64,000 bases of DNA from DHVE2 group archaeon (GTDB taxonomy: Archaea > Thermoplasmatota > Thermoplasmata > Thermoplasmatales > Aciduliprofundaceae), in NCBI GenBank assembly GCA_027023265.1, contig JALVVV010000049.1:1-64000 (forward strand), read 5' to 3'. The notes below the pieces were generated by a model. It did no database searches and had not been told where the DNA came from. It saw only the letters and a program-made list of their open reading frames with translations. This document shows, piece by piece, positions 17,380 to 49,197 of this stretch. Made by a program: the position numbers and the translations under genes. The stretch's first letter is position 1. Each line of letters starts with the position of its first letter.

Positions 17380-20300
17380 TCATTCCCAAATCTTTTTGAG
17401 AATCTCCTCTACACCCCTGAATGCAGACACGTCTCCATCCCAGTTTTCCAAAACTTTTCCGTACTTCTCCTCTATATCGTTTAGAATGGAGGATATTTTA
17501 CCTGCAAGTTTCTTGGGTACATCCCTGTTGCTTACAACTGCAAGAAACAGATGCTTGCCCCGGTGAATCTGTATCTTCTTGTTTCCAAAGTCCATGCTCT
17601 TGAGCGATACATCGGTCTCTCCTTTGAAGGCATCTTTCACAAATTCCTGTATGGCAACTAACATGCTGGATAGCACATCCTCATCCATATCAGGTTTCAA
17701 TCTTCTCGTAGAATGGTGTATGAGCAACCCGGAATCAGATATGAGGTACACATCATCTATGATTGCCTGTTTTCCCCGCATGTAGATAAGCGCTGCTAAA
17801 AGTCCTCCAATTATAGGAATAAGTATGAGAAGAATTAAACCAATCGTTTTACCTGCGGTACCTCCGTTTGTTACAGGTACTGTTTTTATTTCAATAACCT
17901 TACTCATCTTGCTTTCTGCACCATCGTTATCCTTAACAATTAGCGTTATCACATACTTTCCCGGTTTCTTGTATTCATGCTCAGCGGTCATGCCATAAAC
18001 AACATGCGAGCCGTCACCAAAGTTCCACATGTAAATCAAAGATGCTTTGTCAGACGGGGTATCATATGAGTGAGAGCCATCAACATAAACCACATTATCC
18101 GTTATATTATACGTAAAATTAGCCACTGGAGGAACGTTCACCACGGTTATCTTCGCAAATCCAAGAGCACCTGAGCCATCACCATCAATCACCATCACCG
18201 CAACAGTATAATTGCCCCGCTCCGGAAAACTTGTGAAAGTATATGGCACCTCGGTAGATTTATCCGCGGTAAAATGGTTATTCACATAGTTAAAATCCCA
18301 TAAATACTCTTTTATACCATCATAAGCAGTGGTTCCATTTGCACTGAGCTCCACCCGTTCGTCTTCTTTGACAACACTTAAACCTACCACTCTAAGAACA
18401 ACTCTTGGTAAGGTATCTTCCACCACAACAGTTATAGCATCGCTTGCCTGGTCACCATCAAGAGCCATCACAAAAACACTTGCTTCATAGCTACCATTTC
18501 TAACGTACATATGGTATATTTTAAGGTGATTTGGAGGATTTGTAATATTCACCTCCTTCCCGTCCCCAAAATAAAGAACCACGTACTTTATCCCATCATA
18601 AGAGGTTATATTTACGTAAAATGTGGTATTCTCCCCCTCCACGGCATTGGTATAAGCAAGAGTAACCGAGGGCTTTACATCTTTAACCACAATTACTCTG
18701 GAGGTACTAACATTGGAGCCATCAGCATCAGTTACATACAAAGTAACAGTGTATGTTCCGTTTTTATTAAAAGCATGGGTGGGATTCTTATCTGTGGAGT
18801 AATTACCATCTCCAAAATCCCAGAAATACGACTTTATTTTATCGTATGACTCAACATGCGCAGTAAAATTAACGCTCTCACCCTCGTAAACCACTTGAGG
18901 GCTGTAAGTGAAGTTCACCGTGGGTTGTGTATCCAGAACAACAAGTTTTTTAGATGAGTTTGCAACAGAACCGTCACTATCTCTCACCTGAAGAGTTACC
19001 GTGTACGTACCGTTCTCCTGAAATGTATAATTTATATCTTCACCATACAAAACATTATCGGAGATGAACCATGTCCAGTTTACCACGGGGTCGTAAGATT
19101 TCCAAGAAGCAGTAAAACTAACCGCTTCACCCTCGTATATTACTTTGGGGGAATACGAGAAATTGCACGTGGGAACTGTGTCCTTTATAAATACCGTCTT
19201 GTTTACATATCCTATGCTCCCATCGCCATCAATTACGGTAAGATTAACGTGATACGTTCCATTCTCCGTATATGTGTAGTTTACCCATGTTGTATTATAA
19301 AAATCCCATATCCCGTCACCGTTCATATCCCATTTGATTTCGTAAACACCATCGTACGCACTTATATTTGCATGAAACGTTGTGTTTTGTCCTTCAACAG
19401 CGTTGTAGTATGTAAAATTAACCACAGGAACTGTATCAAGTACAGTAACATTTTTGGTTGCATTATCACTTAAACCCTCTTTATCCCTAACAACCACCAT
19501 GAATGTATAATTGCCCTGAGTTTTCACAAAGTATGAGAGATTCACACCATATGAAACAAAAGACCACTCACTTCCGTTCTTAACGTACCATGTGTAATTC
19601 AGGGAAGATATATCGGATAAGGTATCCGTGGAATTCTCAGCACTTAGATTCAGGTAATGACCTTCGTAGATTTCCTTAGGTCCAGAGATATTCGCTATGG
19701 GCTTTGTATCTTTCTGGTAGTAAACATCCACCATATCCACTTCTGCAGGTGATGCATCATACATGGGGCCATCCGTTGAAACAACTATGTCATCCTTTCC
19801 ATCACCATTGACATCACCAGAAGCAATATACACTGGATTTGGATCAGTAGCAAAGTAATCGTAATTAAACACACTTCCATCGTTGTAGGCAACTACAACC
19901 ATATTGTAATTTGTCACCGCAGCAAAATCAGGAACACCATCATCGTTGAAATCACCCACAGTAACGCTTCTTACTCTTCCTGTTAAGTTTCCAGAAATAT
20001 ATGAAGTATTCTGAATGGTACCCCCATTTTGAGGGTAAATAGCGTACATGGACTTAAAAGAAGTGTTACTGTTGTAGATTGCAAGAAGGTCATCCCTTCC
20101 ATCACCATTGAAATCCCCCACTGCAACCGCTGCACCATTGTAACCGGAAGGATTTGGTATTACTTCCACAGGAGTAAAATTGCTTACGGTATTCTGCCGA
20201 TATATAGTAATGTTTGTAGAGTACATTACAACAAGTTCTGGATATTGCTCACCCATAACATTAATAAGTGAAAAATCACGGGAAACATTGAATAGTGGAA

Positions 20301-22083
20301 CTCTAACCTGCGGCAGACTATCATTAGAAAAACCAGCTCCTAAAAATATATCAATCTCAGGATTAGTAAGAGAATTAACGAGGATATCGCTTTCACTTTC
20401 ATTGCGCGTGTCACCAAACAGCACCATGTAAGTTGTGTTCATATACGTTCTTAACGTGAGAACATCACCGCTGGAGCTGTATAGAGTTAAATTTCCATCA
20501 TGGAGGTGACTGACAACAATATCGTCGCGATACGCGTTGGATATGTTAGATAGGGCAACAAAACCCGGATTCCCCGGAGTTGCGTTAACTGCAGAGTAGA
20601 ACCTTGGAAATCCGTATCCGTCATTTAGAAAAACTCCTGTTTCGTTCGCCTTAGTTTGAGCAACAACAATATCGTTAAGAGAATCACCGTTTATATCACC
20701 TATTGCAATGCCCATGGGAAGAAGCCCTCCGTACAATGATTCATCCGCAATACCCTTCAGATACCCATCTCGCTGATACAGCACGTAGGGTACGGAGGGA
20801 TAATCGTTCAATCCACCGTAATCGCAAGTTATTAGATCGTCCATTCCGTCACCGTTTATATCTGCCACCTTCATATCTAAAACATTGTATCCTGCAAATA
20901 TGGTTCTGCTAGGAGTACTAATACTTTCTCCGTTAAAATTCCAAGGGCCATCGTAAATTCTCAGGTTCAAAGGAACATCGTGGCCATCCACAAGAACATC
21001 CTTCCTGGCCACTACAATATCAGGATATGCATCAGGATTAAAATTACCAACAGCTATTGCGCTCACTCCGGAATCTCCTGTTATATTCAAAGAAGGCCAC
21101 TTTGGAAGATCACCTCCTCCATTAGAGTTATAAATACTAACATTACCCGTACCTGAATCACCTACAATCAACTCATCTATTCCGTCGTTGTTCAAATCAT
21201 GAGCGCAAATAGTTGTAGCATAATTAACGGGATGTTCGGAATAATCATTTGAGTCAAAATCACCGGATGAATCAGGATAGAATACCAGCACGTCCGTTCT
21301 ATTATTCACCACCGCCGCGATATCTTCTTCGCCCACACTCCTGAAATTACCGGCGGTAATTTTTTCAATGTTCCCATCCACAGAAATTGTCTCATTGGCA
21401 GTCTGATTATCAGTAAAAGGCGAGAAATAGATGTTAATCTTACTTTTAAGGGTGGGGGATAATGTACCATTTACAGAAAATGCAGCTGCTATGTCCTCCT
21501 TTCCATCACCATTGAAATCACCCACCGCAAGTGATGTTATCTCATAATCAACACCGGTTGCTCCAGAAGGCGGTTTTAAAGACATGGTTTTTCCACTTGT
21601 CAAGTTATACAGCTTCACAGTATCCGTTTCAGCAGTAGAAGATGCCGTTGTCACATGAGATGCAACTGCAAGAAGACCATCCACCACCGAAACATCAACC
21701 GGCTCATTTATGCCATCGGAATCGTTGAGAACAAGCGATGGAAAAACGCTGGTGTATGTTCCCCTGTTGAAATACACGAAAATCTTATCATTATCCGTAG
21801 ATGAAAATATTACATCAACCTTTCCGTCACCATTTACATCGCCTACTGCAGTAACATTTACCTTTCCGTTCATTATAAATGGTAGTGCCTGCAAATTATA
21901 TGGAAAACTTCCATTCCAGTCAAGATGGGGAATTGCCCTGACAGTATCAAGGGTTTTAATAGATGACGAAAGGGATTGAATGCTCCTTTTATGCACACTT
22001 TCACCGGCAAAGGAGTTGATAAGAATACCCGCAAATATGCTTAAAATCACCATAATTACGATAACAAATGCGCTCCACTTCAT
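17380..22083 (-). CDS. Giant transmembrane protein: FG-GAP repeats, seven PKD domains, cytoplasmic longin/roadblock-like tail
   Basis: A 1567-residue surface protein. The N-terminal anchor is WSAFVIVIMVILSIFAGILI (residues 3-22). Then come at least ten FG-GAP/VCBS repeats with calcium loops (VGDVNGDGKVDV, VGDFNGDGKEDI, VADINGDGMDDL, VGDFNGDGRDDL), probably one or two beta-propellers, over about residues 50-800. Seven PKD domains follow (WxFGDG-type motifs such as YFWDFGDGNYS and YMWNFGDGS), to about residue 1400. A second helix (IGLILLILIPIIGGLLAALIYM) and a 132-residue cytoplasmic domain close the protein. That domain (VYLISDSGLLIHHS, MLVAIQEFVKDAF, HLFLAVV) resembles longin/roadblock folds. 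I start at 22083, because a TATA box lies 25 bases upstream; the longer frame to 22164 would contain that promoter. Confidence 0.9.
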   Translation of the reverse strand: MKWSAFVIVIMVILSIFAGILINSFAGESVHKRSIQSLSSSIKTLDTVRAIPHLDWNGSFPYNLQALPFIMNGKVNVTAVGDVNGDGKVDVIFSSTDNDKIFVYFNRGTYTSVFPSLVLNDSDGINEPVDVSVVDGLLAVASHVTTASSTAETDTVKLYNLTSGKTMSLKPPSGATGVDYEITSLAVGDFNGDGKEDIAAAFSVNGTLSPTLKSKINIYFSPFTDNQTANETISVDGNIEKITAGNFRSVGEEDIAAVVNNRTDVLVFYPDSSGDFDSNDYSEHPVNYATTICAHDLNNDGIDELIVGDSGTGNVSIYNSNGGGDLPKWPSLNITGDSGVSAIAVGNFNPDAYPDIVVARKDVLVDGHDVPLNLRIYDGPWNFNGESISTPSRTIFAGYNVLDMKVADINGDGMDDLITCDYGGLNDYPSVPYVLYQRDGYLKGIADESLYGGLLPMGIAIGDINGDSLNDIVVAQTKANETGVFLNDGYGFPRFYSAVNATPGNPGFVALSNISNAYRDDIVVSHLHDGNLTLYSSSGDVLTLRTYMNTTYMVLFGDTRNESESDILVNSLTNPEIDIFLGAGFSNDSLPQVRVPLFNVSRDFSLINVMGEQYPELVVMYSTNITIYRQNTVSNFTPVEVIPNPSGYNGAAVAVGDFNGDGRDDLLAIYNSNTSFKSMYAIYPQNGGTIQNTSYISGNLTGRVRSVTVGDFNDDGVPDFAAVTNYNMVVVAYNDGSVFNYDYFATDPNPVYIASGDVNGDGKDDIVVSTDGPMYDASPAEVDMVDVYYQKDTKPIANISGPKEIYEGHYLNLSAENSTDTLSDISSLNYTWYVKNGSEWSFVSYGVNLSYFVKTQGNYTFMVVVRDKEGLSDNATKNVTVLDTVPVVNFTYYNAVEGQNTTFHANISAYDGVYEIKWDMNGDGIWDFYNTTWVNYTYTENGTYHVNLTVIDGDGSIGYVNKTVFIKDTVPTCNFSYSPKVIYEGEAVSFTASWKSYDPVVNWTWFISDNVLYGEDINYTFQENGTYTVTLQVRDSDGSVANSSKKLVVLDTQPTVNFTYSPQVVYEGESVNFTAHVESYDKIKSYFWDFGDGNYSTDKNPTHAFNKNGTYTVTLYVTDADGSNVSTSRVIVVKDVKPSVTLAYTNAVEGENTTFYVNITSYDGIKYVVLYFGDGKEVNITNPPNHLKIYHMYVRNGSYEASVFVMALDGDQASDAITVVVEDTLPRVVLRVVGLSVVKEDERVELSANGTTAYDGIKEYLWDFNYVNNHFTADKSTEVPYTFTSFPERGNYTVAVMVIDGDGSGALGFAKITVVNVPPVANFTYNITDNVVYVDGSHSYDTPSDKASLIYMWNFGDGSHVVYGMTAEHEYKKPGKYVITLIVKDNDGAESKMSKVIEIKTVPVTNGGTAGKTIGLILLILIPIIGGLLAALIYMRGKQAIIDDVYLISDSGLLIHHSTRRLKPDMDEDVLSSMLVAIQEFVKDAFKGETDVSLKSMDFGNKKIQIHRGKHLFLAVVSNRDVPKKLAGKISSILNDIEEKYGKVLENWDGDVSAFRGVEEILKKIWE

Positions 22084-22103
22084 AAGATACAATGTACAAT
22101 TTA

Positions 22104-22113
22104 CTATATAAGA
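22104..22113 (-). promoter_or_regulatory. TATA box of the PKD/FG-GAP gene
   Basis: On the minus strand the sequence reads tcttatatag, centred about 25 bases before the ATG at 22083. This is the standard archaeal spacing for a leaderless transcript and is the main reason for rejecting the upstream start at 22164. Confidence 0.6.
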
Positions 22114-22194
22114 TTTGAGGAGATATTCTTTACAATCCTGCATCAAAATACGAAGATTTTTCAAAGATAATTTTATAATAAAGGTTATTTAAGG

Positions 22195-24471: not shown

Positions 24472-24617
24472 CGCACCTACATATTAACCATGGATATAAC
24501 CATTATTCTAAATTCCCTGAATAATTAGAGATTCTACCTACAACTCTTCAAAATTAAAAGAGCAAAATTTTGCGAAATTAAGCGATAGATATATATTATT
24601 GAAGCAAGTTTAGGGTA

Positions 24618-27600
24618 ATGATTAGTATGAGTGGGCAAATATTCACGTATCCCATTGAAAACAAAGTGACAAGGGAAGTAATAGATGAACTTGTTCATTA
24701 CTCCACATATAAAAGATTCAAAAGGATATTGGGGGAAGACGTAAATATAAATGTGGTTACATACGGGCTTAGAGATGAGGATTACGAGGCAATAAAAAAA
24801 ATAGATGGAGAGTTCAACATAATAAAAGCGGAAGAGTATATAGGTGAGCTTGACAATTTGATAGAAGAGTTGTACAACAATGGAAAATTGCGAATTGTCA
24901 CCAGAAAAAGTTATTACTGCAGGAGGTGCAACGCTCACTACTCAAAAGATGAAGTTAAAGAGGAGGAAATAGATGAGGTCTACAACATCGTAAGAGTTCG
25001 AATTGGACGCAGGTTGTACTTTATAGATAAAATAAAGAAGGGATATGATCCCGTTGGATTGGCCATAAGCGACAATGAGGATTTAATATATGTGGAAATG
25101 GGCAATGAGACCTGGATTGCTCCAACAGACATGAAAGATGTGCTGATAAACAAAATAGAAGTGCCAGAGCAGGAGATTAAGACTGGAAAGTTTAGAGATA
25201 TAACGAGAGACACCAAAATTGTAAAATACGTTGCCGTGGGAAACTATCACACGGGGTATCTCACGAAAAGAGATGTGGACGAATACAACCTAAAAAAGAG
25301 GATTTCTTCGTATTCCGTCATATACTCCGTCACGTTCAAGGTAAAGAGATTGGTATGTCCCAAGTGTGGGGATGTATTAAAGGAGGAGGAAATACCCAAG
25401 CTGTACCTAAAAGATGAAAAGATAAGCATTGAAATTTCATCCGACAGCGGAGCGTACCGGATGCCCATACTGTACTGCAACTCATGCGGCCACTTTGAGT
25501 ACGGAGACGAGCAGGTCAAAAACTGTCCAATGTGTGGAAATGTCATGGAGAGACCATTCTTTTACAGCCCATCATTCATTACAGTAGGCGCGTATTACAG
25601 TATGGGTAGTGGAGAAGGCGTAGCATTTCTTCATGAGAAAAGGCAAAAATATAGAATTATTAACGAATTCTTAAAAGCAAATAACAAGAAGATTTCCGAT
25701 TCAACATACATAATTCGCAGCAAATATCCAGAAGAGGATATTGAACAGGTACTCTACCTGCTCAAAAACAGGGGGCTCGTAGGAGACAACGCCAACAAAA
25801 TTAGAAAACTAAAAAACGTATTAGAAAATCTCAAAAAATACATAGAAATATACGGGAAATCCGAACCAAGAGACATAATTGATAACTGGATACTATACAG
25901 AACAGAACAGGTAAAAAAGGGTTTTATTTCCAGAGCAAATAACGGAAACTTCAAAGATGCTTTTCACTTACTTTATAATTTTGCCGTGAAAGACATTTCC
26001 AGATTTTACGTAAGCATGAGAAGAAAAGAATCCATTTTAGAAGAGCCAATATTAGACGCACTTAGAATGTTTTTGGTATTTGACCAGGAATTTAGCGAAG
26101 AATACCTATCTAAAATGAATGCTGAGACAATAAAAATTGAAACGGCAGAGGTTTTGGAAGTAAAGGGAATGGAAATCGTTAGAACCATCATCAGAAAAAT
26201 TATGAAATTCAGGAAGGAAAGGGGAATCCCCCGGAGAGAACCCTTAAAAAAGGTGGTATTTGTATCGGAAAAAGCAGATACGTTAAAAGAGTTCTCGGAC
26301 ATAATCATGAGATTTACAAACGTGCTCGTGTTTTACCCCACTGAAAAATGGGAAGAAATGGACGTTATCATCGAGCCAGATGTTGAAGCAATTAACAGAA
26401 TGTACCGTTCATGGGCCCCAAAAATAGCGTATTTGCTAAAACGCAAAAATATAAAAGATGTTATGAACGCCCTGAATGTGGGTGGCTATACCATGGGAAT
26501 AGAGGGGTTCGTGGTGCGCATAACCCCTGACATGGTTAAATTCATAGAGAAAGTTCCCAAAGGATACGTGAAAATAGAATCAAAGTACGGTGACTTGTAC
26601 ATTAACACCGAGAGGGATATAACCACCATGCGTATAAGAATGGTAAACGAGGTTATAAGGCGCATAAACTACATGCGCAAAGACATAGACATGGATTACG
26701 ACGATGTCATAGATGTCAGCATATCCTCTGACAATTACATACTCCGCATTTTAAAAGGATACACTGATGAAATAAAAGAGAGAACCAGAGCGAGAAACGT
26801 GGATTTTGAATACATTGAATACGCTTACGTTATAGAGTGGCCAATAATGGATTTTGACGTGATTATAGGAATAAATCCTCTTTTCAAAAAGTGGGTCATA
26901 AAGGCATTTATGAGCATTCCGGGAATTGCAGAGAACAAAGCAGAAACGCTGTTCCAAATGGGATACGGAAGCGTTTACGAGTTGATGCAAGCATCACCAA
27001 CGGACCTGGCTGAGATACCAGGTTTCTCAATGAGCTTTGCCAACAAAATAAAAGAGTACCTGTTTTCCACGGCATTCAAACCAAAAAAAGAGAATGGAAA
27101 AGAAGTGTGCCCGTTCTGCGGCACCGAGCTGAGCGAAGACGACGATTTTTGTCCACATTGCGGCGCTCCAATAAGAGTAGAGATGGAAAAGAAAGAGGGA
27201 ATTTCAGAAGGTAAAATTTACCTTGCCTGGGGTGATTTCTCCAAGGTTGCCTCAATAGTAACATCCTCGTACAAGGACGAAAAGAAAGTTCTGATAACCA
27301 AGGAGGACCCGGACACAGTGAAAAAAGAGTACAACCTGAAAAATACATCGGTTATATGGATATCATACGTGCCTATGGGAAAGAATATCAAACCAAAGGA
27401 CCTCGAAAGCCTGAAAGCTGCAATAATTAAGAGCTTGGAAAAAGGTGCAAAAATAGTAATGTGGGATGCATTTGACTTCATGGTGGCAATAAACGGTTTT
27501 GATACTATAAACGACTTCATAAAGGAGCTCAAAGAAGAAATAAAGAATGCGAACGCAATAATGCTGTTTAACGTGGAAGAATTAGAAGATGATAAAGAAA

Positions 27601-27638
27601 TAGAAAAACTGAAGGAAACGGTTGATGGAAAGCTTTAA
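24618..27638 (+). CDS. Non-catalytic IleRS-like protein fused to HhH, zinc ribbon and DUF835
   Basis: A 1006-residue soluble protein. Residues about 80-320 resemble the CP1 editing region of isoleucyl-tRNA synthetase (LYNNGKLRIVTRKSYYCRRC, then NETWIAPTDMKD), with zinc knuckles C101/C104, C247/C250, C287/C290 and C303/C306. Residues about 395-560 match the IleRS anticodon-binding domain (DNWILYRTEQV at 422; RKERGIPRREPLKKVV at 532). Residues about 665-730 match the IleRS C-terminal tRNA-contact domain (VNEVIRRINYMRKDIDMD). I find neither a HIGH nor a KMSKS motif, so aminoacylation is unlikely. The tail adds a helix-hairpin-helix domain (765-815), a CPFC/CPHC zinc ribbon (831-848) and a DUF835 domain (865-1000). 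TATA sequence gatatatat lies 25 bases upstream of the ATG. The domain calls rest on pattern recognition only. Confidence 0.8.
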   Translation: MISMSGQIFTYPIENKVTREVIDELVHYSTYKRFKRILGEDVNINVVTYGLRDEDYEAIKKIDGEFNIIKAEEYIGELDNLIEELYNNGKLRIVTRKSYYCRRCNAHYSKDEVKEEEIDEVYNIVRVRIGRRLYFIDKIKKGYDPVGLAISDNEDLIYVEMGNETWIAPTDMKDVLINKIEVPEQEIKTGKFRDITRDTKIVKYVAVGNYHTGYLTKRDVDEYNLKKRISSYSVIYSVTFKVKRLVCPKCGDVLKEEEIPKLYLKDEKISIEISSDSGAYRMPILYCNSCGHFEYGDEQVKNCPMCGNVMERPFFYSPSFITVGAYYSMGSGEGVAFLHEKRQKYRIINEFLKANNKKISDSTYIIRSKYPEEDIEQVLYLLKNRGLVGDNANKIRKLKNVLENLKKYIEIYGKSEPRDIIDNWILYRTEQVKKGFISRANNGNFKDAFHLLYNFAVKDISRFYVSMRRKESILEEPILDALRMFLVFDQEFSEEYLSKMNAETIKIETAEVLEVKGMEIVRTIIRKIMKFRKERGIPRREPLKKVVFVSEKADTLKEFSDIIMRFTNVLVFYPTEKWEEMDVIIEPDVEAINRMYRSWAPKIAYLLKRKNIKDVMNALNVGGYTMGIEGFVVRITPDMVKFIEKVPKGYVKIESKYGDLYINTERDITTMRIRMVNEVIRRINYMRKDIDMDYDDVIDVSISSDNYILRILKGYTDEIKERTRARNVDFEYIEYAYVIEWPIMDFDVIIGINPLFKKWVIKAFMSIPGIAENKAETLFQMGYGSVYELMQASPTDLAEIPGFSMSFANKIKEYLFSTAFKPKKENGKEVCPFCGTELSEDDDFCPHCGAPIRVEMEKKEGISEGKIYLAWGDFSKVASIVTSSYKDEKKVLITKEDPDTVKKEYNLKNTSVIWISYVPMGKNIKPKDLESLKAAIIKSLEKGAKIVMWDAFDFMVAINGFDTINDFIKELKEEIKNANAIMLFNVEELEDDKEIEKLKETVDGKL

Positions 27639-28003
27639 TCGGGGATAATCACCCTATCCTTTTCTATTTTCACCAGCATACCCGGCTTTATCAAGGATAT
27701 GTCTATACTATCCACCGTCGGTATCTCCGCTATTATTGAGCCTGCCACCACAATTGGCTCGGCATTTTCAACAATTATCCCCGCTGGAGCCGTGTTGTAA
27801 TATCTAAGGGCGTAGATGGTGTATGAACCAACCGTGCTTCCTGCTCCTCTGGGAAAAACAAGGATTTTGTCCTTTACCTTACCACAACCTTCCACAGTCC
27901 CTTTTTTCGCGTCTACGTCCCCGAGAATAACTACGGGCTTTTCGCATTTAACTGCTTCTCCCTCCACCACTCCTGGATATATCACCTTACCCTGTATAAT
28001 CAT
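27635..28003 (-). CDS. AcnX small subunit (DUF126), phosphomevalonate dehydratase small subunit
   Basis: A 122-residue swivel-type domain protein (AcnX small-subunit family) with the conserved loop PRGAGSTVGSY and APAGIIVENAEPIVVAGSI. With the large subunit encoded just upstream it should form archaeal phosphomevalonate dehydratase, which makes trans-anhydromevalonate 5-phosphate in the modified archaeal mevalonate pathway. The start overlaps the large-subunit stop by four bases. Its 3' end overlaps the convergent IleRS-like gene by four bases. Confidence 0.92.
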   Translation of the reverse strand: MIIQGKVIYPGVVEGEAVKCEKPVVILGDVDAKKGTVEGCGKVKDKILVFPRGAGSTVGSYTIYALRYYNTAPAGIIVENAEPIVVAGSIIAEIPTVDSIDISLIKPGMLVKIEKDRVIIPD

Positions 28004-29163
28004 TCAATCACACTCCTCAATAAAGTGTACATGTCGCGAACCACAACGTTAGCACCACCAAACTTTTCCTTGCGCAGATAGAAAGCAGCCTTTCCAGAAT
28101 TTGTTCCAATATAACTGTATATTTTTCCGGCATTGCTTACCACCACGCATGTATCTTTCATCACCTTGCCCCCAAATTTGCGTATAACATTCACGTATTC
28201 CTCGCTTCTATCCATGACGCTTTTGGCAGCGAAAATCCACAACTCCACGCCTCTTTTTTTCTTTTTACCATCTAAAAACTCAGCAATCTTTCTCAACTCC
28301 TCACGCGAAACATGAGGGCAACCTATGGCCACCAACTCAACATCCACAGGAGCTCCTTTGAACTCCTCAATGTCATCTCTACCTACAGTTATCCGTTCCA
28401 CGTCATCACTCAAAGCACCCCTGTACTCCGGCGTGATGCCTTCCACATGGTACAGTGCTATGCTCCCGGAAGCAGCCATGGCGGCACCCATCAACTTAAA
28501 GTCTGTGCAATCACCCCTTATTCTAAGGTATGGCACCCCGTCCAATGCAGAACCCACAAATAACCCGATAAGCGGAAAATCCTCGCCTTCAGGCTCGAAC
28601 TTCACATCTACAATGTGCGTTGCTTTTCTATTTTCCTTGATATGATAACCGTACTCTGGCGTTTTTCCAATGACCGCCGATGCAAGTGCACTTACAGAAC
28701 CCTCCCTGTTCGTTCTTGCACCAATGATGGAGTTGGCATATATAACCGCAGAACTCTCCGCCCATGCAATATGCTCACCAAAATCTGGAACATTATCGTA
28801 ATAATAGGGAGTGCAGGTCATCGTGGGCTTTATTCCCATGTCCATATATGCTTTTATTATCTCCATCTGCTTTTTATACATTTCCTCATCAACATGTAGC
28901 TCTTTTAAATAATCGTCATCGAATGCAAGGGGATTTAGAGTGGCGGGAACGGACACACGAACTCCGCGCAAGCTCTTTAAAAAATGCAACCCAGCATCAC
29001 CTATTGTCCTGTACGATACGCCGGATATCTGAGCGGATTTGACAGGTATGAGTCGCTCCGCTCCAAATATGTCCCCCATCTTTACAAGAATGAGCATCAT
29101 CTTCTCGTAACCAGCACCCAAATCGCCATCAAGTACCTTTTCCTCTTCCCTTGTAAGATACAT
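28000..29163 (-). CDS. AcnX large subunit, phosphomevalonate dehydratase large subunit
   Basis: A 387-residue aconitase-X catalytic subunit. The opening MYLTREEEKVLDGDLG, the ligand region TCTPYYYDN, WAESSAVIYANSIIGARTNREG (substrate and cluster region) and AIGCPHVSREELRKIAEF are characteristic. The 4Fe-4S ligands should come from cysteines in TCTPYY, GCPH and KDTCVVVSNAGK. The product feeds isopentenyl phosphate and then archaeal lipid synthesis, which fits the several lipid operons in this window. It follows purH by 12 bases on the same strand. Confidence 0.92.
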   Translation of the reverse strand: MYLTREEEKVLDGDLGAGYEKMMLILVKMGDIFGAERLIPVKSAQISGVSYRTIGDAGLHFLKSLRGVRVSVPATLNPLAFDDDYLKELHVDEEMYKKQMEIIKAYMDMGIKPTMTCTPYYYDNVPDFGEHIAWAESSAVIYANSIIGARTNREGSVSALASAVIGKTPEYGYHIKENRKATHIVDVKFEPEGEDFPLIGLFVGSALDGVPYLRIRGDCTDFKLMGAAMAASGSIALYHVEGITPEYRGALSDDVERITVGRDDIEEFKGAPVDVELVAIGCPHVSREELRKIAEFLDGKKKKRGVELWIFAAKSVMDRSEEYVNVIRKFGGKVMKDTCVVVSNAGKIYSYIGTNSGKAAFYLRKEKFGGANVVVRDMYTLLRSVIE

Positions 29164-47901: not shown

Positions 47902-49197
47902 ATGGTAATAAAACACGTTCAGGAAATATTAAACGATGACTGGATTGGGAAAGATGTGGAGCTAAGAGGGTGGATTTACAGAAAGAGAAGAACTGGAAAG
48001 CTCATATTTGTAGTTTTGAGAGATTCAACAGACATTGTACAATGTGTAGTAGAGAAAAAGGTGGTGGGTAACGAGAAATTCAAAGAGCTGGACAAGGTAG
48101 GGGTGGAATCATCAATAAAGATTTCGGGAACCGTCGCAAAAGAAGAGAGGGCGCCAACTGGATATGAAATACATGTAAAAGATGTAGAGATAGTCGGACC
48201 TTCTTTCAATTTTCCCATATCAAAAGACAAGAGCGATGAGTTCCTTTTGGACAACAGGCATCTGTGGGTAAGAAGCCGGGAGATGAATGCAATACTAAAA
48301 ATAAGGTCAACCATTTTCGGAGCGTTACATGACTTCTTTAGAGAAAATGGATATTATGAGACACAGGGTCCAATGTTCGTAACAGGTGCAGTGGAAGGGG
48401 GCTCAACACTATTCGAAGTCCCCTATTTCAACAGAAAAGCATACCTGACCCAGAGTTCTCAGTTTTACCTTGAAACCTTAATATTTTCCCTGGAAAAAGT
48501 GTATACCGTAGCACCAAGTTTTAGAGCTGAAAAAAGCAGAACAAGAAGGCATCTTACAGAGTACTGGCATGCCGAGGCGGAAGCCGCATGGTACCACAAC
48601 AGCGATATGATTGACGATGAAGAAGAGATGATTGTTCAAATTGTTCAGAAAGTGCTTCAAGACAGAAAAAAAGAATTAAAGATACTGAACAGGGATACAA
48701 AAATGTTAGAGCATATAGAAAAGCCATTTGAAAGAATGAAATACGAGAAACTTGTAGATTTTGCCAACGAGCACGGAGTACCAATGAAATATGGGGATGA
48801 TTTAGGCGCCGATGAGGAATCAGCCATCACCAAAAATTTTGACAAACCCGTATTCATAACGCATTACCCAATAGAAATAAAACCGTTCTACCACAGGCCA
48901 GACCCAGAAAACCCGAAGGTAGTCCTTTGCCATGACATGCTTGCTCCTGAAGGTTATGGAGAGGTTATTGGGGGTGGAGAAAGGATATACATGTTAGATG
49001 TACTACTTAAAAGACTTGAAGAGGAAAACCTCAATCCAGAGGATTACTACTGGTACGTGGACCTGAGAAAATACGGAAGTGTGCCTCACGCAGGGTTTGG
49101 ACTTGGAGTGGACAGGCTCGTATGGTGGATCGCAGGCCTGGAGCATATAAAGTACGCAATTCCGTATCCGAGGACTATAAGGAGGGTTAAACCATAA
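47902..49197 (+). CDS. asnS: Asparaginyl-tRNA synthetase (archaeal type)
   Basis: A 431-residue class IIb synthetase. The OB-fold anticodon domain (VELRGWIYRKRRTGKLIFVVLRDSTDIVQCVV) is followed by the catalytic core: motif 2 SFRAEKSRTRRHLTEYWHAEAEAAW (the TEYWHAE form marks AsnRS rather than AspRS, which has a TEF..ID.E form), YGEVIGGGERI, and motif 3 GFGLGVDRLVWWI. TATA box gtataaatag at 47871-47880 and a gggag element precede the ATG at 47902. Its promoter is back-to-back with the ZnuA-like gene, 76 bases apart. Confidence 0.95.
   Translation: MVIKHVQEILNDDWIGKDVELRGWIYRKRRTGKLIFVVLRDSTDIVQCVVEKKVVGNEKFKELDKVGVESSIKISGTVAKEERAPTGYEIHVKDVEIVGPSFNFPISKDKSDEFLLDNRHLWVRSREMNAILKIRSTIFGALHDFFRENGYYETQGPMFVTGAVEGGSTLFEVPYFNRKAYLTQSSQFYLETLIFSLEKVYTVAPSFRAEKSRTRRHLTEYWHAEAEAAWYHNSDMIDDEEEMIVQIVQKVLQDRKKELKILNRDTKMLEHIEKPFERMKYEKLVDFANEHGVPMKYGDDLGADEESAITKNFDKPVFITHYPIEIKPFYHRPDPENPKVVLCHDMLAPEGYGEVIGGGERIYMLDVLLKRLEEENLNPEDYYWYVDLRKYGSVPHAGFGLGVDRLVWWIAGLEHIKYAIPYPRTIRRVKP

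Follow-up and report, generated by a model that had tools for sequence, protein, structure and literature searches.

The window analysed here, a stretch of 64,000 nucleotides from a hydrothermal-vent archaeon, contains a gene whose product joins the anticodon-binding and C-terminal domains of an isoleucyl-tRNA synthetase (IleRS) to a helix-hairpin-helix (HhH) domain, a zinc ribbon and DUF835, and yet lacks the synthetase active-site motifs. The locus thus raises the question of where such a protein, hereafter the relic, comes from, and why it has been retained. The relevant features are as follows.

24582-24603, + strand: TATA-like element GCGATAGATATATATTATTGAA, 5' of the relic gene; similar in relatives
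24618-27638, + strand: whole gene, probable relic of a fused ileS; 1006 aa plus stop, one uninterrupted frame
24618-24902, + strand: shrunken first Rossmann half, residues 1-95, without HIGH (alignment, models)
24903-25607, + strand: CP1 remnant, residues 96-330; editing-site motifs gone
25608-25781, + strand: shrunken second Rossmann half, residues 331-388, without KMSKS; lowest conservation of the protein
25782-26255, + strand: helical anticodon-binding domain, residues 389-546 (Anticodon_1)
26256-26885, + strand: IleRS C-terminal domain, residues 547-756 (DUF5915); strong conservation
26886-27083, + strand: HhH domain, residues 757-822 (Pfam HHH_5)
27084-27197, + strand: C4 zinc ribbon, residues 823-860 (C831, C834, C845, C848)
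27198-27635, + strand: DUF835 (inactivated-KaiC-like), residues 861-1006 (Pfam match 881-988)
27635-28003, − strand: AcnX swivel subunit (Pfam), convergent neighbour and synteny anchor
28000-29163, − strand: AcnX large subunit (Pfam), synteny anchor

The relic protein was found in every well-assembled member of the window's family, and thus the frame is not a chance ORF. A fusion artefact or assembly error was rejected, as the architecture is identical in independent genomes; the host genome is 1.64 Mb and 99% complete. The MSG... N-terminus common to the relatives suggests that the true start is possibly at 24627, three codons into the frame. The element GCGATAGATATATATTATTGAA is a likely archaeal promoter, and the recurrence of TATA-like elements 5' of the relatives' genes suggests that the relic is transcribed. 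Within the protein, Pfam locates Anticodon_1 at residues 422-546, DUF5915 (the IleRS C-terminal region) at 582-733, HHH_5 at 763-813 (slightly below its own cut-off in the relic but above it in fused relatives), a zinc ribbon at 831-852, and DUF835 with 68.5 bits against a cut-off of 33.1. An Rfam search over the 22-30 kb stretch of the window returned two tRNAs and no regulatory RNA.

In a 55-sequence alignment, the positions of HIGH, KMSKS, WFDSG, DQTRGW, TTTPW and the editing-site Asp are occupied in the relic by gaps or unrelated residues. The absence of HIGH and KMSKS, first noted in a reading of the sequence alone, is borne out by alignment with 42 IleRS sequences, and the relic scores 21.1 bits on TIGR00392, the IleRS equivalog model, far under the 621-bit cut-off. 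The possibility that the protein is an ordinary IleRS was rejected on the absence of these motifs. To judge from what has been lost, it almost certainly performs no catalysis. It should be emphasized, however, that the catalytic Rossmann halves are not missing, as that sequence-only reading had proposed, but reduced, residues 1-95 and ~331-388 forming short beta-alpha remnants. Its view that the editing domain is kept holds only for the CP1 zinc knuckles, whose Cys pairs (101/104, 247/250, 287/290 and 303/306) are retained in the alignment with relatives; the domain itself is largely gone, and both TTTPW and GTGxVHxAPxxGxxD are absent.

The descent from IleRS that was also proposed is supported. 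The relic, modelled by AlphaFold2 with 23 relatives, reached a mean pLDDT of 85, and when compared with the PDB by Foldseek, as had been suggested, its best matches were IleRS entries. The full model matched IleRS2 of Priestia megaterium most closely (8c8w; E 5.5e-38, 1001 columns), and the best match of residues 1-420 modelled alone was again an IleRS (8c9d; E 8.4e-16). The TM-scores between relic and IleRS were modest (~0.4-0.5 on query length), as expected where domains have shrunk and moved. Profile comparison showed a weak match (E 2e-5) in which residues 70-389 are collinear with canonical IleRS, from both zinc regions to the KMSKS region. A sequence search of the PDB with the relic returned mainly HhH proteins and no synthetase, and structure comparison was required to reveal the IleRS fold. 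Pfam, AlphaFold2 and Foldseek thus describe a protein with an IleRS fold that includes the anticodon-binding and C-terminal domains.

Whether the host also has a normal ileS, a check that the sequence-only reading had called for, was answered by an intact, separate gene at L039:837-3908. It encodes an unfused IleRS of 1023 aa that scores 958 bits on TIGR00392 and in which HMGH, KMSKS and the editing motifs are intact. This enzyme is of another lineage than the relic, type-2-like and foreign-looking; horizontal spread of type 2 IleRS is known, and both types occur in Lokiarchaeota (PMC4861432). An unfused IleRS accompanies the relic in every genome checked, and in family f3 only a few kilobases separate the two genes.

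It could be argued, and was from the sequence alone, that an HhH domain, a zinc ribbon and DUF835 are modules foreign to synthetases. For this archaeal class that is wrong, as active-looking IleRS bears the same tail. Indeed a class-wide family-profile search turned up, in many other families, ORFs of 1200-1800 aa that match the relic from the anticodon domain onward. These encode full-length archaeal-type IleRS in which HXGT, MSKS and the editing motifs are present and to which HhH, in some cases a zinc ribbon, and DUF835 are appended. Outside a few families, the fused enzyme is the sole IleRS in most of the genomes examined. No IleRS frame sampled from the phylum's other classes was longer than 1179 aa, and thus the long fusion seems to be confined to this class. 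The relic shares with the fused enzymes of other families the order from anticodon domain to DUF835, the AcnX-linked locus and conserved residues of the C-terminal domain and DUF835; in contrast with these full-length proteins, it has none of the HXGT, MSKS or editing motifs and is ~380 aa shorter. Two archaeal-type IleRS relatives of the fused clade in family f11 (L182 and L186) end without the HhH-DUF835 tail, and in L186 most of what is missing extends into DUF5915, much of which is absent as well.

In nine families (f8, f34, f11, f24, f19, f32, f25, f23 and f35), AcnX swivel-AcnX is the immediate convergent neighbour of the active fused ileS, as it is of the relic gene in the window, and much reduced homologues of 686 aa also occupy the AcnX locus in f3. 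This common neighbourhood marks a shared ancestral locus. When a maximum-likelihood tree was built from the anticodon and C-terminal domains, the relics fell beside degenerate fused copies, at a distance from the unfused clade, which together with its outside relatives received 100% SH-aLRT. A constraint that placed the relics with the unfused IleRS cost 39 log-likelihood units, or 30 without the longest branches; in the AU test this grouping was not strictly rejected, with p values of 0.070 and 0.081, and the tree by itself is thus not decisive for the origin of the relic. That the relic is a recent duplicate of the host's unfused IleRS, a possibility which the AU test by itself did not reject, was rejected on the basis of 23% identity, a different tail and a different locus. 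It is very likely that the window gene is the ancestral fused ileS, still at its original position, and that it decayed once a second IleRS had assumed its role in charging, a claim that is carried by synteny and the shared tail, with the tree as support rather than proof.

Intermediate stages of this decay are represented in living genomes. From intact enzyme to relic, TIGR00392 scores fall through 965, 703, 333, 307 and 21 bits. Against a canonical query, fused copies in genomes without a second IleRS score 615-717 bits (30 genomes), whereas outside f8 those beside a second IleRS score 163-628 bits, with a median of 393 (25 genomes); the rank test between the two situations gives p 3e-10, which is indicative only because the genomes are related. 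KMSKS has been lost and HXG kept in the fused copies of G071, G138 and G082, both motifs have gone from full-length frames in G063, G066, G104 and G180, and in the relics of the window's order all motifs are lost. In G083 the fused and unfused copies both still look intact. Family f8 is, by its motifs, the mirror image of the window's case. Here the fused copy is intact (646-715 bits in 9 genomes), and in the two unfused copies that were aligned the motifs are broken, with HIGD and RAGAN in G122 (L122:1075-4206) and KISRA in G062 (L121:3027-6116), TTTPW being altered in both. As a separate observation, the unfused copy of G083 (L130:1407-4331) has GVHH in place of HXGH and AMHRS in place of KMSKS. 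The swapped GXHH motif, found here in an archaeal genome, is associated with mupirocin hyper-resistance in bacterial IleRS2 (PMC10485003).

Despite the loss of its motifs, the relic is an aaRS-like protein under strong purifying selection. Its dN/dS is 0.068 between G000 and G002, like or below that of four neighbouring housekeeping genes (0.076-0.096), and 0.034 between G005 and G003. On average, family members are 65% identical in the C-terminal domain, 72% in HhH and 73% in the zinc ribbon, whose four Cys (C831, C834, C845 and C848) are invariant in 23 of 23 aligned sequences, compared with 35-37% in the Rossmann remnants. At many of the positions that the relics conserve, the active fused enzymes have the same residue. 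This holds for 10 of 14 positions in the anticodon domain, for 9 of 14 in DUF835, and for 18 of 30 columns in the C-terminal domain, including R681, R682, R687 and Y624.

These observations may be accommodated by a history of vertical inheritance that starts from an active archaeal-type IleRS bearing the HhH-(zinc ribbon)-DUF835 tail at its C-terminus. A second IleRS, unfused and type-2-like, would later have been acquired by the lineage and would have assumed the charging of tRNA-Ile. The old copy would then have lost its active site, followed by the editing domain and, in some families, DUF835. It would have been retained because a second, non-catalytic role, already present in the fused enzyme, could not be filled by the newcomer. 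Subfunctionalisation would be the simplest account, the newcomer charging tRNA-Ile while the old gene keeps its other task. We envisage that the relic binds tRNA-Ile or a tRNA-like RNA through its anticodon-binding and C-terminal domains, that HhH and the zinc ribbon provide extra nucleic-acid contacts, and that DUF835 acts as a protein-interaction module, such that the protein would serve as a tRNA-bound scaffold or regulator. The parts that are conserved are those for anticodon-arm contacts together with two nucleic-acid-type modules, whereas the parts that are lost served activation and proofreading, a pattern that argues for RNA binding. Overall, we favour as probable the view that a relic of the ancestral ileS is kept as a non-catalytic protein that binds RNA, most likely tRNA-Ile; RNA binding as such is, on the domains retained, also somewhat probable, while a regulatory output is plausible but falls a little short of being probable.

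Several other explanations deserve consideration. The relic may be a GCN2-like sensor in which binding of deacylated tRNA-Ile leads to a signal of isoleucine starvation by way of HhH, the zinc ribbon or DUF835. This would be consistent with the retention of tRNA-binding modules while catalysis was lost, with the presence of DUF835, described as an inactivated KaiC, in archaeal response regulators (PMC5847659), and with the many DUF835 proteins of the host genome. We regard such a sensor as unlikely, however, as the synthetase-like part is followed only by HhH, zinc ribbon and DUF835, with no kinase or other known output domain, and the genomic neighbours of the relic are isoprenoid genes, among which there are no genes for isoleucine biosynthesis or stress. 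Furthermore, DUF835 is missing from the f4 and f3 orthologues and so is not an indispensable output; the C-terminal domain and zinc ribbon persist there, making RNA binding a likelier core function than signalling through DUF835. As little of the catalytic part and only part of the tRNA-contact surface are kept in these two families, the RNA ligand may have changed. A broader proposal, slightly less likely still, is that the tail of fused IleRS mediates a conserved tRNA-dependent regulation, for example by monitoring the charging of tRNA-Ile through the inactivated-KaiC-like DUF835, and that, once charging had passed to a second IleRS, the entire gene stayed where it was as a dedicated, non-catalytic tRNA-Ile regulator. 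If this were true, the relic would be the archaeal counterpart of GCN2-type sensing, derived from another parent synthetase.

It is no likelier than the starvation sensor that the relic is a partner or chaperone of the unfused IleRS, adding to its tRNA binding within a complex in the manner of Arc1p-type cofactors. The co-occurrence of the two proteins in each relic-bearing genome checked and the proximity of their genes in f3 would fit this proposal, although such proximity needs no functional cause. In profile searches of a genome sample that includes many draft metagenome assemblies, moreover, the relic gene was not found in f6 and part of f3; the unfused IleRS is present there, and thus the partnership is not obligatory and the function of the relic is dispensable there. 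The absence of the gene from these groups, together with the loss of the catalytic motifs, could also be taken to indicate a decaying pseudogene or functionless remnant. This is the least credible explanation of all, given that the frame is open in all well-assembled genomes of the family with the dN/dS of 0.03-0.07 described above, the zinc Cys are invariant and the gene persists across four families. The suggestion from the sequence alone that the relic edits mischarged tRNA in trans, deacylating Val-tRNA-Ile, would be consistent with the survival of the zinc knuckles and of some CP1 beta structure. It does not agree with the loss of the editing-site motifs in all relics of the window's family or of most of the editing domain, the remaining region being too short, and the host's unfused IleRS has an intact editing site of its own; trans-editing is thus highly improbable.

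Paralogues of aaRSs in which charging has been lost or reduced are a known kind. The HisRS-like domain of GCN2, for example, keeps a synthetase fold without aminoacylation. HisZ and SLIMP resemble the relic in the same respect (PMC9437257). All three differ from it in their parent synthetases, in having known partners or outputs, and in lacking DUF835. LeuRS-I of Sulfolobaceae binds tRNA-Leu and makes leucyl-adenylate but does not aminoacylate, while LeuRS2 of Halobacteria retains only a weak, drastically reduced activity (PMC9437257). Similar to the relic, these proteins are second, aminoacylation-deficient copies of a class Ia synthetase in archaea, and both still bind tRNA; in the relic, however, the motifs are wholly lost, and it is the relic that is the vertically inherited copy. 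IleRS2 of P. megaterium (PDB 8c8v/8c8w; PMC10485003) is active, lacks HhH, zinc ribbon and DUF835, and shows 13% identity to the relic in the structural alignment. With the DUF835/iKaiC proteins (PMC5847659) the relic shares the domain, above the Pfam cut-off, but carries it on a relic synthetase and not on REC or PAS.

Our literature search found no paper that links IleRS to DUF835 or describes the relic. As far as the literature searched shows, the IleRS-HhH-(ZnR)-DUF835 enzyme family and the keeping of a dead native copy at its own locus are new, as are the living intermediates and the mirror-image case. The system represents a natural experiment in which an essential synthetase gene stays at its own locus while a rival takes over catalysis, with intermediates that span the range from intact to almost unrecognisable. 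It implies that a second function of the fused archaeal IleRS matters enough for a dead enzyme to be preserved, and the parts still present, namely the C-terminal domain, HhH and zinc ribbon, are where that function should be sought. Caution is also required in the annotation of IleRS in this class, as domain matches mislead; one of two copies is often dead, and it is not always the same one.

Some minor observations concern other genes. In G083 and G073, proteins of ~1350 aa with CARDB domains are encoded upstream of the fused ileS (L104:8929-12999 and L109:1-4047), and their C-termini match DUF5915, the IleRS C-terminal domain, the L109 match being below the Pfam cut-off. DUF835 is expanded in G000, with 16 matches genome-wide and two copies in several frames. 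A 1594-aa predicted surface protein in the window (17380-22164, − strand) has FG-GAP repeats and several PKD domains, followed by a membrane-spanning stretch and a small cytoplasmic-looking domain. The window also encodes a class II synthetase of the D/K/N type (47902-49194, + strand), the orthologue of which is the immediate neighbour of the relic in several genomes of f1, f3 and f4 and, in G066, adjoins a decayed fused IleRS.
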